From: Nitrospira sp.
GTDB taxonomy: Bacteria > Nitrospirota > Nitrospiria > Nitrospirales > Nitrospiraceae
DNA length: 57,996 nucleotides
NCBI GenBank assembly: GCA_024998685.1
Contig: JACOEH010000030.1
Span: 1 to 57,996 of the forward strand
Reading direction: 5' to 3'
The notes under the pieces were generated by a model that was not told the DNA's origin, did no database searches, and saw only the letters and a program-made list of their open reading frames with translations. A program made the position numbers and the translations under genes. This document shows, piece after piece, positions 51,281 through 56,684 of the stretch (the stretch's first letter is position 1; each line of letters begins with the position of its first letter).

Positions 51281-51762
51281 GGCTTCGATCCGTAAAAGGT
51301 TTGTGTTGTGTAGGTATCCTGTACGATTTTTAGCTCGTTCTTGATCAATCGCAGTTTGTTTTCCGCACTTTGAGGAACTTGCGGTGCGGTGGGGCCCCAT
51401 CCTTGAAACATCGTTTGCTTACCTTCCGATGATATTTGCAGACGGAGACGGGAGCTCTGCTCGGTTTCCGGTGTCACGGAGGCTTCGGCACGGCTTCTGA
51501 CAACGCCTAGGCGCCCCTTCACGAGCCAATCCCAGACACTGGGTTGTTCATCCCTGTAATCTGTCTGTAACTGAGATCCGTCTTTCCAGTCCACGTCGTA
51601 TTCATCATCGTCCAGGACTTTCGTCACCGCCGCTTTCACCCGGTCTGCCGAGGCCGGCAATGTTACCTCGACGACATCAGGCTCGACAGAACGCTGAACA
51701 TTGGCACATCCAAATGTGAAGACTGTGAGGGCAACGATAGCGAGACAGTCCTTATGGATCAT
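51277..51762 (-). CDS. Hypothetical lipoprotein
   Basis: A 161-residue protein with a lipoprotein signal (lipobox TFGC, Cys at about 19). The rest resembles a small periplasmic alpha/beta domain (VEVTLPASADRVKAAVTKVL, then YDVDWKDGSQLQTDYRDE). It overlaps the upstream RAM-domain gene by four bases (51759-51762), so it is translationally coupled. Function unknown; the general layout resembles outer-membrane lipoproteins of the NlpB/BamC-like style, which is only a suggestion. Confidence 0.75.
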   Translation of the reverse strand: MIHKDCLAIVALTVFTFGCANVQRSVEPDVVEVTLPASADRVKAAVTKVLDDDEYDVDWKDGSQLQTDYRDEQPSVWDWLVKGRLGVVRSRAEASVTPETEQSSRLRLQISSEGKQTMFQGWGPTAPQVPQSAENKLRLIKNELKIVQDTYTTQTFYGSKP

Positions 51763-52175
51763 TTTGTTCTGGCCTCCTTCAGACGGTATACAAGGTGAGT
51801 ATCAGTCTGCGTCACTCCTTCGATACGATGGATACGACTTAAGACCAGTTGAGTCAAGGCATCTTGGTCCGGTATGTCGGCTATCGCAATGATGTCCGGC
51901 TTGCCCCAACAGGGGTCGATCGTTTTTATTTCTTTAATTTCTCCCAGCGCTTTGACGACAGCCGCTGTTTGCCCAGGTAGTACATTAATCAGCACGTATG
52001 CCCGATCCGACATGCCTTGATCTCCCGGAGCAGGGCCATGAATCATATAGGGAATTGCCCCGGAAGTGGGCTGCTTTATAGCAAAGTCATTTTGCGCTGT
52101 CAACTCCGGCTTGGTCTTCATGGATTTTGATGACGACATGATAGAAGGAATCCTTTTTAAATTTGGTTTGGCCAT
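51759..52175 (-). CDS. Lrp/AsnC-type ligand-binding (RAM) domain protein
   Basis: A 138-residue protein without an HTH domain. The last 80 residues are a stand-alone RAM domain (YVLINVLPGQTAAVVKALGE; GKPDIIAIADIPDQDALTQL; IEGVTQTDTHLVY), which in Lrp proteins binds amino acids and forms oligomers. The first 55 residues are polar and probably disordered. I chose ATG 52175, four bases after the stop of the upstream gene; 52139 is an alternative. It lies in a three-gene operon with the nuclease-like gene and the lipoprotein. Confidence 0.8.
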   Translation of the reverse strand: MAKPNLKRIPSIMSSSKSMKTKPELTAQNDFAIKQPTSGAIPYMIHGPAPGDQGMSDRAYVLINVLPGQTAAVVKALGEIKEIKTIDPCWGKPDIIAIADIPDQDALTQLVLSRIHRIEGVTQTDTHLVYRLKEARTK

Positions 52176-52179
52176 GGTC

Positions 52180-53631
52180 TCACTTTGGCGCAACAAGCAC
52201 TTCGATCCGGCAGTGCTCGCTGACGCTTGTTAAGGTTGTTTCCAGCCGTTTCGGGCTTCCGATTCGGCCTTCCGGATCGTACATGAAGCAAAACAAGGTA
52301 GAGCATCGGCCTTGAGCCTGATAATAAGCGGAGTCCACCGCGACCTGATCGGCGAGTTCCTTCGTAGTCAATCCGGATCTGGTCTTCTTCGCCACCACGG
52401 CGATCCGGTCCCGATTGACAAGCAACGTCATTCTTGATGCGCCTCCTGAATAGGGGGGTGTCCATTCATCGGTCGCTACCTCGTCGAACTCCACCTTCAA
52501 CAACGCGCACAAGAGGTCCTGTAGGTCGTAATCGTCGTCGACCTCAAGTGTCGGACGATAATCTTTCCGAAGACGGAGGTGACGGGCTACGGTGTGAAAG
52601 CGATGACAGACTTTCCGAATGAGATGGAGCGGGTCTTGGTCAAGCGCGGAATCGAGCGCCGATTCGACCAACCGAGTGCGGCTCAAACCCATTGATGGTC
52701 TATCTAACGGCGGCTCTTGCGGAGCCGGCACACTCGAAGGAGCCGCCTCGGACACCAGTGACTGAGTATTCAACGCAGATGCTGAAGCATTGGCGTGATG
52801 TTGAACCGATATCGAAGGAGATGCCGGAACCACCCCCGGTGACGGCTCAGCCTGTTTCGGTTCGTCGAGCGTTGATGGCATCGACTTGATGAATGGAGCC
52901 GACTCCGGTGGAAGAGGTGGATTTGTGCTTGGGGCGAGAAGAGGGGTATGCGGTTCGGATGTCACAGGTGTAGGCGTCGGAAGGGATGTCGAAGCTACGG
53001 TAGGGAGCGGAGACAGTGTCGGTGCCGGGATCGAAATCGGAGTTGGAGTGAGTATAGGAGTCGAGATTTGAGATGCTGGTGTAATGGGTTGTATTGGGGG
53101 CGCCGGCGTGACAAGAGAAATCGACGGTCCCACATTCGTCGCCATGACCACGGCGACCGTCATCGGTGTAGCCGCTTGCGTTGTCGCAGTGGTCGGTATC
53201 GTAGGCGAGACAGGCATCAGACGTGCGGTGCTGTGTATGTCTGCCTCATGCGTGTTTGTCTCATGTAATGACTCGGCTTTTAGTGGCGGCTTGAGTCCTT
53301 GAAGTTCGAGTTTCCGATCCTCCAAGATTTGTATAAGCTCTTTAACGACGGTAAGGGTCTGTGTTACCTCAGCCTGATCTGCTGTGCGAATCTTGAAGTT
53401 CCGATAGGTTTGGAATTCGTGAGAACGCTCACCGAACGTCTGCCGCAGGCATTCACGAAATTGCAGCTCGGCTTTGCTTTGTGCCGCATCACGGTAAGGG
53501 AACCCCTCTTGGCTGATGTCACTAATTGTCGACAAAACTTCTTGGAACTTGTTGATTCGATGCGTAACCTCTTCGATGAGAGCGGCTTTCGATCGGGACC
53601 GTTGATGTTCCGCTGCGCGCGTCCGTGCCAT
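52180..53631 (-). CDS. Protein with coiled coil, Pro/Thr-rich linker and degenerate DpnII/MboI-like nuclease domain
   Basis: A 483-residue protein in three parts. Residues about 1-110 are a charged helical region; about 120-310 are a low-complexity linker rich in Pro, Thr, Ser and Ala (many TPTP/PTPT runs); the last 160 resemble the PD-(D/E)XK domain of the DpnII/MboI restriction family (TLEVDDDYDLQDLLCALLKV; TDEWTPPYSGGASRM; CFMYDPEGRIG). At the active site the usual Asp after SRM is Thr (T402) and the Glu of the ExK motif is Val (V413), with the Lys kept (K415), so catalysis is doubtful. Start at 53631 is preferred over a TTG at 53679. Confidence 0.78.
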   Translation of the reverse strand: MARTRAAEHQRSRSKAALIEEVTHRINKFQEVLSTISDISQEGFPYRDAAQSKAELQFRECLRQTFGERSHEFQTYRNFKIRTADQAEVTQTLTVVKELIQILEDRKLELQGLKPPLKAESLHETNTHEADIHSTARLMPVSPTIPTTATTQAATPMTVAVVMATNVGPSISLVTPAPPIQPITPASQISTPILTPTPISIPAPTLSPLPTVASTSLPTPTPVTSEPHTPLLAPSTNPPLPPESAPFIKSMPSTLDEPKQAEPSPGVVPASPSISVQHHANASASALNTQSLVSEAAPSSVPAPQEPPLDRPSMGLSRTRLVESALDSALDQDPLHLIRKVCHRFHTVARHLRLRKDYRPTLEVDDDYDLQDLLCALLKVEFDEVATDEWTPPYSGGASRMTLLVNRDRIAVVAKKTRSGLTTKELADQVAVDSAYYQAQGRCSTLFCFMYDPEGRIGSPKRLETTLTSVSEHCRIEVLVAPK

Positions 53632-54026
53632 GGCTGTGAAAAAGTCTAGCCGAGGCTCGGATACCTGGCAAGAAAACAACCGCTTTTGACGAATGGGCTA
53701 GTCCGGCAAGGTGCTCACATGCGCAAGCCTTACATTCATTCGACACAGCGTGAAGGATTACCCGCATGGGGAAACAACAATGAGTCTGTGAAGAACGAAC
53801 GGCATGCGCATGAAGACGAATAAGAATTGACTGAGTGCGCTGGATAGCTATCTCCAGGTGCAGAATTCGATCAATATTATAATCATGCAATATTGCGGAC
53901 GCTGACGGAATCTTAGCCGTAGGCGTACAGCTCCAAGAGAATTAGGCAGTGCTATCCAATCTGAAAGGCCCGACCGCCAAGAATGGCGGCCGGGTGTGCA
54001 CTCCCTTTTTTAATTCACCCAATGAT
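53632..54026. other. Intergenic region with one hairpin
   Basis: About 400 bases without a supported gene. A strong hairpin lies at 53969-53994 (stem CCCG, A-C mismatch, CCGCCA; loop AGAA), followed on the plus strand by TTTTTT after a nine-base gap. It may end the copper-protein transcript coming from the right, although its T-tract is on the other strand. The promoter of the three-gene operon to the left should also be here. Confidence 0.45.
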
Positions 54027-54509
54027 TCAAGATGCCACATCGCCCCCTTTCGATGCCATGCGCTCGCAAGATTCTACACAGCGTCGGCACAACTCGGCGC
54101 ACTGCCGTACCATCTGATCATTCCCTGCCGTCTGCTCGCAGCTTTCCGCACAGAGCCGACACATCTCGGAACAGAGGGCGCACACGCGATCATGAAATGA
54201 AGATTCTCGCGCCATATAATCGGCCGCCGTCGTGCACATCTGCGCACAGTCCGTCAGTAAGCGAATATGGTCTGGGGTTGCGTGACGCCCCCCGAGTTTT
54301 AAGCAATGCCCTATCATTTGGATACAGAGCGCATGGCAGTCTTGGCAGAGTTGTAGACAATGCCTCATTTCCTCGCTCATGTGATGCCCTTCCATGGTAG
54401 CCGCTTCGTGCGTCGCGGCATCCGCCCCCCGCAGTATGGCCAATGAAGCACTCGTCGCGAACAAAGAGGCACAGGTTGTCACAAATGTTCTTCTGCTCAT
54501 GTCTGGCAT
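54027..54509 (-). CDS. Csp-like four-helix-bundle copper-storage protein, Tat-exported
   Basis: A 160-residue protein. The start at 54509 follows a G-rich ribosome site. A Tat signal (SRRTFVTTCASLFATSASLA) sends it folded to the periplasm. The mature part is helical with 16 cysteines in repeats such as CLQLCQDCHALC, CALCSEMCRLCAESC and CAELCRRCVESC, plus His and Met residues (MEGHHMSEEMRHC). This is the pattern of Csp1 copper-storage proteins, where Cys residues line the bundle and bind many Cu(I) ions. It is the last gene of a minus-strand metal cluster with a His-rich peptide upstream. Confidence 0.88.
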   Translation of the reverse strand: MPDMSRRTFVTTCASLFATSASLAILRGADAATHEAATMEGHHMSEEMRHCLQLCQDCHALCIQMIGHCLKLGGRHATPDHIRLLTDCAQMCTTAADYMARESSFHDRVCALCSEMCRLCAESCEQTAGNDQMVRQCAELCRRCVESCERMASKGGDVAS

Positions 54510-54620
54510 AAGTCCCCCTTCTGTGGCTCGTGGTCCTCGCCGATCACGGGGCTTGGACAACAGAAACAACATGAAAAAGTCTATATGGACTATCGGAGAA
54601 AACGAGACGAAAGGGGGGTA

Positions 54621-54953
54621 TCAAACCCTAAGGACTGTTGTATGGATCGAGCGATGGATAGAGGTATCGGCGATACGTAGCGGTTCGGTCACTCGAATAA
54701 GCGGTACAACCATATCGGGAAGAATGGGAATGGGCAACGGACATTCAAGATGGAATAGGCTAACGGCAGCATTCGAAGAGAACTGTGAGTGAGGGCCTAT
54801 TTCGAGAAATGCATCGCATGTCCCGCGTACAGGCTCCTCCATTCCGGAGGTGCAGTCCATCTCAGTTGATTGTTGCAACGGCAGAACACAGGCGTAGGCA
54901 TTGAAGGTAAGAACGACAAGCAGGACTGCCAAAAAAACAGAAACCCGTACCAT
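54621..54953 (-). CDS. Small exported protein of the metal cluster
   Basis: A 110-residue protein starting at 54953 (MVRVSVFLAVLLVVLTFNAY, a signal peptide; likely cleavage near AYA-C). The mature part has four Cys including the possible lipid-anchoring first one, Met/His residues and many Pro (CPLPIPILPD). A longer open frame to 55271 is antisense to nothing known and overlaps the His-rich gene in another frame, so I reject that start. No family is recognised. Placement between a His-rich peptide and a Csp suggests metal handling. Confidence 0.55.
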   Translation of the reverse strand: MVRVSVFLAVLLVVLTFNAYACVLPLQQSTEMDCTSGMEEPVRGTCDAFLEIGPHSQFSSNAAVSLFHLECPLPIPILPDMVVPLIRVTEPLRIADTSIHRSIHTTVLRV

Positions 54954-55122
54954 GAGTCGAATGCTACGCCGTGCTGTCAATGATGTCGATTCTGGGTTCG
55001 TGCATGTGATTTCTACCGCTGTGAATGAAGTAAGCAATTGGAATAACTCACTGGTGCCCGTGCGACTAAGCCGGCCAGGTAATGTATTTCCCACCGGTGC
55101 GGATGTACGTACCCAAGGAAGA

Positions 55123-55308
55123 CTACGTTGAGTGTTGGTGCTGGTGTTCACCGTGCTCGTCAGTGTGCTGATGGTCATGGCGCCCGGTGTCGGAGCCATG
55201 GTCGTGAGCATGTGCATGTACGTGCTCATGTTCGTGGCTGTGAGTCTGAGCCGATTCGTGCATGTGTTCATGGCTGTGGAGATGCTTATGAGAATGAGAG
55301 CCTTTCAT
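55123..55308 (-). CDS. Histidine-rich metal-binding peptide
   Basis: A 61-residue peptide with 22 His residues (36 percent), mostly as alternating xH pairs (HSHEHMHES, HEHEHVHAHAHDHG, HQHTDEHGEH). The ribosome site AAAGGAG is good, which argues for a real gene despite low complexity. No signal peptide, so it should stay in the cytoplasm and bind Ni, Zn, Co or Cu. It is the first gene of a minus-strand set leading to the small exported protein and the Csp. Confidence 0.75.
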   Translation of the reverse strand: MKGSHSHKHLHSHEHMHESAQTHSHEHEHVHAHAHDHGSDTGRHDHQHTDEHGEHQHQHST

Positions 55309-55701: not shown

Positions 55702-56684
55702 TTAGGGAACAGGCACCGGCGTGAGCAAAACCGCATGGGACATACCGTGACCCACCGCCTTGCATATTATTTGGCCGTGGTCGTTGATGGCGGTAGCTTC
55801 GCTGAGGGACCACCCCGCTCCGCTTGCGTCTAGCAGCGTGTTGAGGTCATGTATCGATCCATTCGTATAAACAAACGCATAGTGTCCGTACCCTGGCTTG
55901 TTATACCACCCGACTATTTGCCCTAATTTATTAATACCCTTAGCGGCACTTGGACTGAAATTGATTCCGAGAGGGCCAAGCAGGTCCATCATCTTGCCGT
56001 TGCTGTACAGGAAGGCGTGCACCTCCGAGCTTGTTGGCTTGAACGCAGCTTGTCCAACCACCTGCCCGGAATTATTGATTCCAAAGGCGGCGCTGCTGTT
56101 GCCGCCCAAAGTGCTGAGATCTTTCATCGTGCCGTCCTTGTACAGAAAGGCGCGACGGGGTCCATAGTTGACGGTACCGGCTTCCCCCACCACCTGCCCA
56201 GAATCATTGATGTCGTAAGCAACGCTATTATGGTCCTCTCCAAACATTGAGATTCGTCATGATTCCATGGTTGTACATCACCGCATAGGAAGTAGCACTA
56301 GTTTGGGCCCACCCGACAACCACACCAGAGGTATTGATCGCATTAGCGCCGCCATAGCCTCCACTAATAATCCCTGGGAGAATTGTGACGTGACCGTGGT
56401 CATAGACAAAAGCATGCCCATCACCTGTCTGCCCCACTACTTGCTCCGAATCATTGATGCCATAGGCACTCGCGTAGACCCCCAGTGATGCCCAGGCTCA
56501 TCATCATACGGTTCTTGTACAGAAAGATATGCGAGGTATTCCCCGGGACGGTGGACCATCCGACCACCTCTCCTAAATTATTGATGGCCGTGGCACCACT
56601 TCTGCCTCCACCCAACGAGCCCAAATCCGTGAGGCTGTACCGTTCAGCTTGTACGAGCGACTCTGTCGCGATGAGCATTCCCAT
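55702..56684 (-). pseudogene. HAF-repeat exported protein, broken by two frameshifts
   Basis: Three minus-strand frames join to one protein of about 327 residues made of HAF repeats (pattern AxxINxxGxVVGxxxxxxxxxAFLYxxGxMxDLxxLGG). Examples are ATAINNLGEVVGWS, NAINTSGVVVGWA and FGINNSGQVVGQA. The first part starts at 56684 in a hydrophobic, signal-like stretch. The frame changes at a run of five C (56479-56483 on the plus strand) and again near 56250. HAF repeats are thought to form extracellular beta-propeller-like structures. The homopolymer position of the first shift makes an assembly error plausible. Confidence 0.75.

Follow-up and report, generated by a model that had tools for sequence, protein, structure and literature searches.

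The window, a stretch of 57,996 nucleotides from a Nitrospira contig (JACOEH010000030.1), carries on its minus strand a His-rich ORF (55308–55123), the gene for a small exported protein that we call MID (54953–54621) and a copper-storage protein gene, csp (54509–54027). That these three ORFs lie in a row on one strand, in this order, had been proposed in a first-pass annotation and is correct, as are the main traits it gave for their products. The His-rich ORF encodes a 61-residue peptide with 22 His residues (36%) and is a real small gene, kept in 6 of 59 related genomes. The coding part of MID occupies positions 54624–54953, with the ATG at 54953 and the UGA stop codon at 54623–54621; the 110-residue product has four Cys and nine Pro residues, a signal peptide and the C-terminal sequence TTVLRV, and its description as an unrecognised small Cys/Pro exported protein stands, with no match in Pfam or NCBIfam. 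Csp, of 160 residues, runs from an ATG at 54509 to a stop at 54027 (coding part 54030–54509) and has 17 Cys residues, of which the mature protein contains 16. The starts of MID and Csp were placed from homologues of the window genes and from sequence signals; the mechanical ORFs, 55271–54621 for MID and 54572–54027 for Csp, overcall both. The unit considered here consists of two genes, MID and csp.

With respect to the downstream gene, the earlier reading of Csp as a Tat-exported copper-storage protein with 16 Cys residues agrees with both its sequence and its predicted fold. Specifically, AlphaFold2 returned a confident four-helix bundle with many Cys residues in its core, preceded by a poorly predicted signal region, and the sequence contains an SRRTFV motif, which we take to be the Tat motif. 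The best solved relatives by sequence are Nmul_A1745 (3lmf, E = 8.6e-23) and the cytosolic RkCSP3 (6zif, E = 7.7e-17), and the match to Csp1 (5fjd, E = 0.014) is far weaker than that to Csp3. Foldseek likewise ranked Csp3 structures above Csp1 for the predicted model, and the NCBIfam Csp1 model (TIGR04401) scored 37.1 bits, below its curated cut-off of 100. The protein is thus best described as a Csp3-like body behind a Tat signal. A four-helix bundle with a Cys-lined core is found in Csp3 (6zif, 5fig, 5nqm) and Csp1 (5fjd) and is likewise predicted for the window Csp, which is nearer to Csp3 in sequence yet carries a Tat signal as in Csp1.

MID has no related solved structure (best E = 0.12). 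Conservation of this middle ORF had been named as a point to be checked, and it is indeed conserved and thereby no chance frame, with a family member in 26 of the 59 related genomes (E ≤ 0.001) and in 37 of 245 genomes of a phylum sample. A scan of 84,980 species' genomes gave 99 confirmed places, of which 80 loci were kept; as the scan used two family peptide patterns, more distant relatives would be missed. Nearly all of the 80 loci are labelled Nitrospira or Nitrospirota, with one labelled Nitrospinota and four from two bins labelled uncultured Nitrosospira, and judged from these sequences the family appears to occur almost only in Nitrospirota. No relatives were found on plasmids, and the genome of the window itself holds five copies of the family; that of Nitrospira moscoviensis has three family loci (L093, L103 and L107).

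Among the 80 loci kept, those of the window type (midA) have csp as the next gene after MID, on the same strand, in 21 of 21 cases, and in the midB class CusC is next in 50 of 56, the remainder having CusB (two), CusA (one) or none of the genes looked for (three). The loci behind these and the other counts are not independent of one another, several being from closely related strains or from nearly identical genomes such as those of L089 and L090. A third class, midC, has a second csp next in two of three loci. The short exported ORF thus stands directly upstream of a metal gene, on the same strand, in both of the larger classes. Several midB genes themselves stand behind a P-type ATPase gene, and five loci (L042, L044, L045, L046 and L050) show a Nitrospira copper-export order of P-type ATPase, MID, CusC, CusB and CusA, with CusB uncalled in L045 and CusA outside the stretch shown for L050; in the midB loci examined, MID has a predicted promoter of its own immediately ahead of the ATG. 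The genome of the window also contains a second, divergent MID and Csp pair (L041:3346–4147; contig C7:118345–119146), whose Csp ORF begins with no signal peptide, as though a sensor in the periplasm were in charge of a store in the cytosol.

Among the 59 genomes searched, strong csp1 matches occur in exactly the ten with an intact midA. In a further genome, G023, represented by a single-contig assembly, MID is interrupted by stops and frame breaks and the His-rich gene is intact; homology to the window stops at the csp Shine–Dalgarno site, and the other Csp of this genome is only distantly related.

Other genes in the surroundings may be described briefly. A 499-residue protein encoded on the minus strand at 52180–53679 carries at its C-terminus a restriction endonuclease domain of the DpnII-MboI type (PF18742, E = 7e-50), preceded by a long Pro-rich linker. 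Several midA loci and G023 (L031, L032, L035, L040) have a homologue downstream of csp. Also on the minus strand, positions 51759–52196 encode a protein with an AsnC/Lrp ligand-binding domain (PF01037), for which no DNA-binding domain was matched, and 55702–56684 holds a DUF3466-like repeat protein in pieces, split by stops or frame changes.

The anatomy of MID was compared across a set of 63 loci, made up of 22 midA loci including the window and 41 hand-picked from 59 midB and midC loci, those left out being loci whose MID end was unreadable in a first alignment or that repeated others. Three Cys residues are invariant (Cys22, Cys34 and Cys46 in window numbering), giving spacings of 12 and 12. 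The protein ends in VLR[I/V/L]: all 63 sequences have Val at −4 and Arg at −2, 59 of 63 have Leu at −3, and the final position is taken by Ile, Val or Leu. The codons for Leu and Arg have been exchanged freely across the 63 loci, which argues that amino acids rather than bases are selected here, and none of 665 other ORFs of these loci ends in V[LFM]R[ILV]. All 63 loci use UGA as the stop codon, which is found in 127 of 315 other ORFs, and T follows it in 62 of 63. Between the Cys cluster and this end lies a linker that is only 49% identical among 15 same-length midA copies and is nonetheless fixed in length, so that the last invariant Cys lies 64–65 residues from the C-terminus in all 22 midA sequences and 65–69 in all 41 midB and midC sequences. 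Beyond the signal helix MID is predicted to be disordered (mean pLDDT of 52 from a 20-sequence alignment, whose shallowness may add to the effect). We also considered a MID–Csp fusion made by UGA read-through, for which the window frame happens to stay open; it was rejected because many relatives have a gap whose length is not divisible by three.

Upstream of MID, the window contains a predicted −35 element, TCGACA (54984–54989; TTGACA or TTGACT in relatives), and a predicted −10 element, TAGCAT (54961–54966), that ends 7 nt before the ATG, both on the minus strand and both recognised by comparison of the midA loci, in which the distances between −35, −10 and ATG are fixed. A sigma-70-like site of this kind, with a 17-nt spacer and a −10 element ending 5–8 nt before the ATG, is present in 18 of the 19 midA loci with a placed ATG, the exception (L056) being beside a masked stretch; in 2.6% of trials, shuffled upstream sequences reached a score of at least 8 with a −10 element as near to the ATG as this. 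In L059, L073 and L074, which stand outside this count with the ATG unplaced, a promoter-like site is present in each. Seventeen midB and midC loci were examined in the same respect: the 14 midB loci have a site that resembles the midA one but differs from it (TTGACG, 18 nt and TAGACT in most), and the three midC loci have no such site. RNA made from the midA or midB sites would start at the ATG or close to it. As the predicted midA promoter ends 5–8 nt before the ATG, the MID transcript is probably leaderless and would not include the His-rich gene.

The RNA between MID and csp offers a possible means of controlling the second gene. The 111-nt gap (54510–54620, minus strand) contains a stretch, CCCCCCTTTC (54609–54618), that lies two nucleotides after the MID stop and is complementary to the csp Shine–Dalgarno sequence, GAAGGGGGA (54513–54521), and the predicted fold of the gap pairs the two. 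Over the 22 midA loci, the csp Shine–Dalgarno pairs with the 24 nt that directly follow the stop at a mean probability of 0.62, as against 0.16 for shuffles that preserve dinucleotides and the last 18 nt. Pairing of at least 0.5 was obtained in 16 of the 22 (the loci below this value being L059, L064, L065, L072, L073 and L074) and in 6 of 26 ordinary tandem gaps with a Shine–Dalgarno, the latter taken from mechanical ORFs. Consensus folds computed from three separate alignments (21 midB gaps, 14 long midA gaps and 7 short midA gaps) all pair the post-stop region with the downstream Shine–Dalgarno.

Covariation was tried as proof of this helix, with a negative outcome for midA and a weak one for midB. 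For the midA Shine–Dalgarno helix, 175 of 500 shuffles were as good, and swapping helix partners among midA loci cost nothing (p = 0.32). The covariation score of the whole midB structure was reached by 4 of 500 shuffles, and within its Shine–Dalgarno helix there were one-sided changes only and no double changes. In the model of the window, simple release is not supported, as blocking the post-stop bases leaves the Shine–Dalgarno still 0.98 paired, elsewhere. A stem-loop hiding the csp Shine–Dalgarno, the mark of the mechanism of CutF, is in this sense a prediction of the folding models.

In Rhodobacter capsulatus, CutF senses copper as an exported nascent chain, and a delay in its export opens the stem-loop that covers the Shine–Dalgarno of the next gene (PMC9973294). 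CruR, an upstream ORF of Bordetella pertussis that senses copper, acts through Rho and has a fixed spacing from Cys to C-terminal motif and a poor predicted structure (PMC9426467); for CruR, arrest has been shown in vitro. In the papers found, these are the two copper-sensing nascent exported proteins described, and both belong to DUF2946. MID–csp shares this layout. In cutF–cutO, too, a small Sec-exported Cys protein lies directly upstream of a Tat-exported copper protein; CutF also has a C-terminal stalling-like motif, a stem-loop hiding the downstream Shine–Dalgarno (predicted in the case of MID) and relatives upstream of CusC-type genes (PMC9973294). With CruR, MID shares the position as a copper-related upstream ORF, the fixed distance from Cys motif to C-terminal motif, a protein of poor predicted structure and a bubble of C over G that runs from the ORF into the gap (PMC9426467). 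The accounts of arrest peptides that stall with a stop codon in the A site provide a further point of comparison: their conserved C-terminal residues directly precede the stop, and a stalled MID would likewise have its stop in the A site. Those peptides regulate protein-localisation genes and have other motifs, and their arrest has been measured, that of MID being a prediction.

MID also differs from the two known systems. The DUF2946 profile (PF11162) matched none of 20 MID family members at E ≤ 10, and nothing over its cut-off was found in the 59 genomes, a Caulobacter control being positive. A weak DUF2946 match in G010 (22.8 bits, below cut-off) was followed up and set aside; it lies about 21 kb from the MID of that genome, and a one-frame translation nearby was uninformative. 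Whereas CutF has a CxxxC motif (PMC9973294), the MID Cys residues are spaced 12 and 12, and MID contains neither CXXC nor CxxxC. It ends in VLR[I/V/L]-UGA, its partner is a storage protein and its transcript is predicted to be leaderless. The survey for CutF relatives required a C-terminal PP (PMC9973294); the window MID, ending in SIHRSIHTTVLRV, has neither RAPP nor any PP in its last 15 residues, and many midB copies have PP at −13/−12. CruR differs in having CXXC, DUF2946 and, three residues from its end, RAPP; it controls a TonB receptor by way of Rho and works without needing its signal peptide (PMC9426467). Lacking the DUF2946 profile, the CXXC or CxxxC motif and, in the window copy, PP, MID would work like CutF or CruR, and we do not class it as a DUF2946 member. 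None of the arrest motifs in the published passages found is VLR[I/V/L], and we found no mention in the literature, the main texts on CutF and CruR included and supplements aside (where some midB proteins may be listed), of a MID-like family in Nitrospira or before csp; the main text of the CutF paper names neither Nitrospira nor Csp (PMC9973294).

MID is best read as a copper-sensing upstream ORF of the CutF/CruR kind that has a new C-terminal motif and controls copper storage. We consider it probable that MID is an exported leader that acts during its own translation, sensing copper and controlling translation of csp. The predicted disorder, the VLR[I/V/L] end with UGA, the fixed distance from Cys to C-terminus and the predicted Shine–Dalgarno sequestration all give MID the look of a cis-acting leader. 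The suggestion that the middle protein is a new component is accordingly borne out in part, in that MID is new to family libraries, conserved and tied to Csp, but as a putative leader rather than as a component of storage.

In the mechanism that we propose, the sigma-70 promoter just before the ATG would give a leaderless mRNA starting at MID, and the signal peptide would direct the growing MID chain to the Sec translocon. The stretch between the last Cys and the C-terminus is about as long as the ribosomal tunnel and the translocon together, which suggests that the Cys cluster has just entered the periplasm by the time the ribosome arrives at the stop codon. In the absence of delay, MID would be finished and released, and the post-stop mRNA would pair with the csp Shine–Dalgarno, leaving csp off. 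With copper on the Cys cluster, the VLR[I/V/L]-UGA segment may, as the analogy to CutF suggests, hold the ribosome at the stop, where it would cover the anti-Shine–Dalgarno stretch and free csp. The C-rich, G-poor RNA at the stop may in addition let Rho end the transcript when the ribosome is absent, as in CruR. Copper is the likely signal given the Cys ligands and the copper partners; its binding, the arrest at UGA, the release of the Shine–Dalgarno and the direction of the response are all inferred. CusCBA operons begin with the same module, so storage and export would both be driven by a sensor of one design. It is possible, at somewhat less than even chances, that these genes represent an undescribed, Nitrospirota-specific class of arrest leaders, three-Cys exported nascent chains that stall at VLR[I/V/L]-UGA on leaderless mRNAs, in which one sensor design opens either a copper-storage gene or a copper-export operon. 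If so, a family outside DUF2946, in another phylum and with another C-terminus and storing or exporting partners, would suggest that control of this type is wider than the PP/RAPP search motif, and nitrifying Nitrospira would gain a defined copper switch; copper supply has been reported to shape competition among nitrifiers (PMC13374858).

In terms of how the leader would act, Rho-dependent termination must also be weighed, with the C-rich region after the stop serving as a rut site and csp being controlled in the manner of CruR, which works via Rho, and not by Shine–Dalgarno sequestration. The value of C minus G over the 35 nt after the stop is +0.19 in midA and +0.27 in midB and midC, as against −0.045 (sd 0.145) for 308 other ORFs, and the bubble of C over G begins inside MID and continues into the gap; judged by composition, this region around the stop may indeed fit a Rho site. 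The C-richness is, however, also explained by an anti-Shine–Dalgarno role, and the predicted Shine–Dalgarno pairing exceeds that of the dinucleotide-preserving shuffles, so we regard control by Rho in place of sequestration as rather unlikely.

The signal peptide and three invariant Cys of MID, together with its constant copper-protein partners, whose products are exported or envelope-spanning, would also suit a periplasmic Cu(I) chaperone with a CusF-like role, a finished protein that acts in trans and passes copper on to Csp or the Cus pump. Such a protein would need neither the predicted disorder nor a variable linker of fixed length, conserved last residues with an invariant UGA or a constant place directly upstream of its partner, all of which count against this role, as does the second partner, csp2, which starts without a signal peptide. 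A chaperone is on these grounds improbable, and from its sequence features MID looks like a nascent-chain sensor.

A simpler arrangement would be that MID is an ordinary secreted protein and that the post-stop pairing merely makes csp dependent on MID translation, with no sensing involved. Translationally coupled genes usually have an anti-Shine–Dalgarno at the stop codon. This reading leaves the conserved VLR[I/V/L]-UGA, the fixed distance from Cys to the end and the presence of the same module before both csp and CusC unexplained, and we hold it to be quite improbable.

The first-pass annotation had joined all three genes into a single metal-storage route over cytoplasm and periplasm, for which the order and strand in the window, and the same order in remnant form in G023, speak, but which we consider very improbable indeed: a predicted promoter separates the His-rich gene from MID; the His-rich gene adjoins MID only in this genome and G023, and G023 has kept the His-rich gene and lost MID and csp; the other four genomes with the His-rich gene have different genes in its flanks (about 1.5 kb on each side, 3 kb examined); and the gene was not seen, with both strands read, at the nine other intact midA loci. 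Conservation of gene order, likewise put forward to be checked, thus applies to MID and csp and not to the His-rich gene, a neighbour only, which we judge to be an independent gene and not a fixed member of the MID–csp unit. The identity of the His-rich peptide is 85–92% in four other carrier genomes and 55–65% in the two copies of G001, and the neighbourhoods differ.
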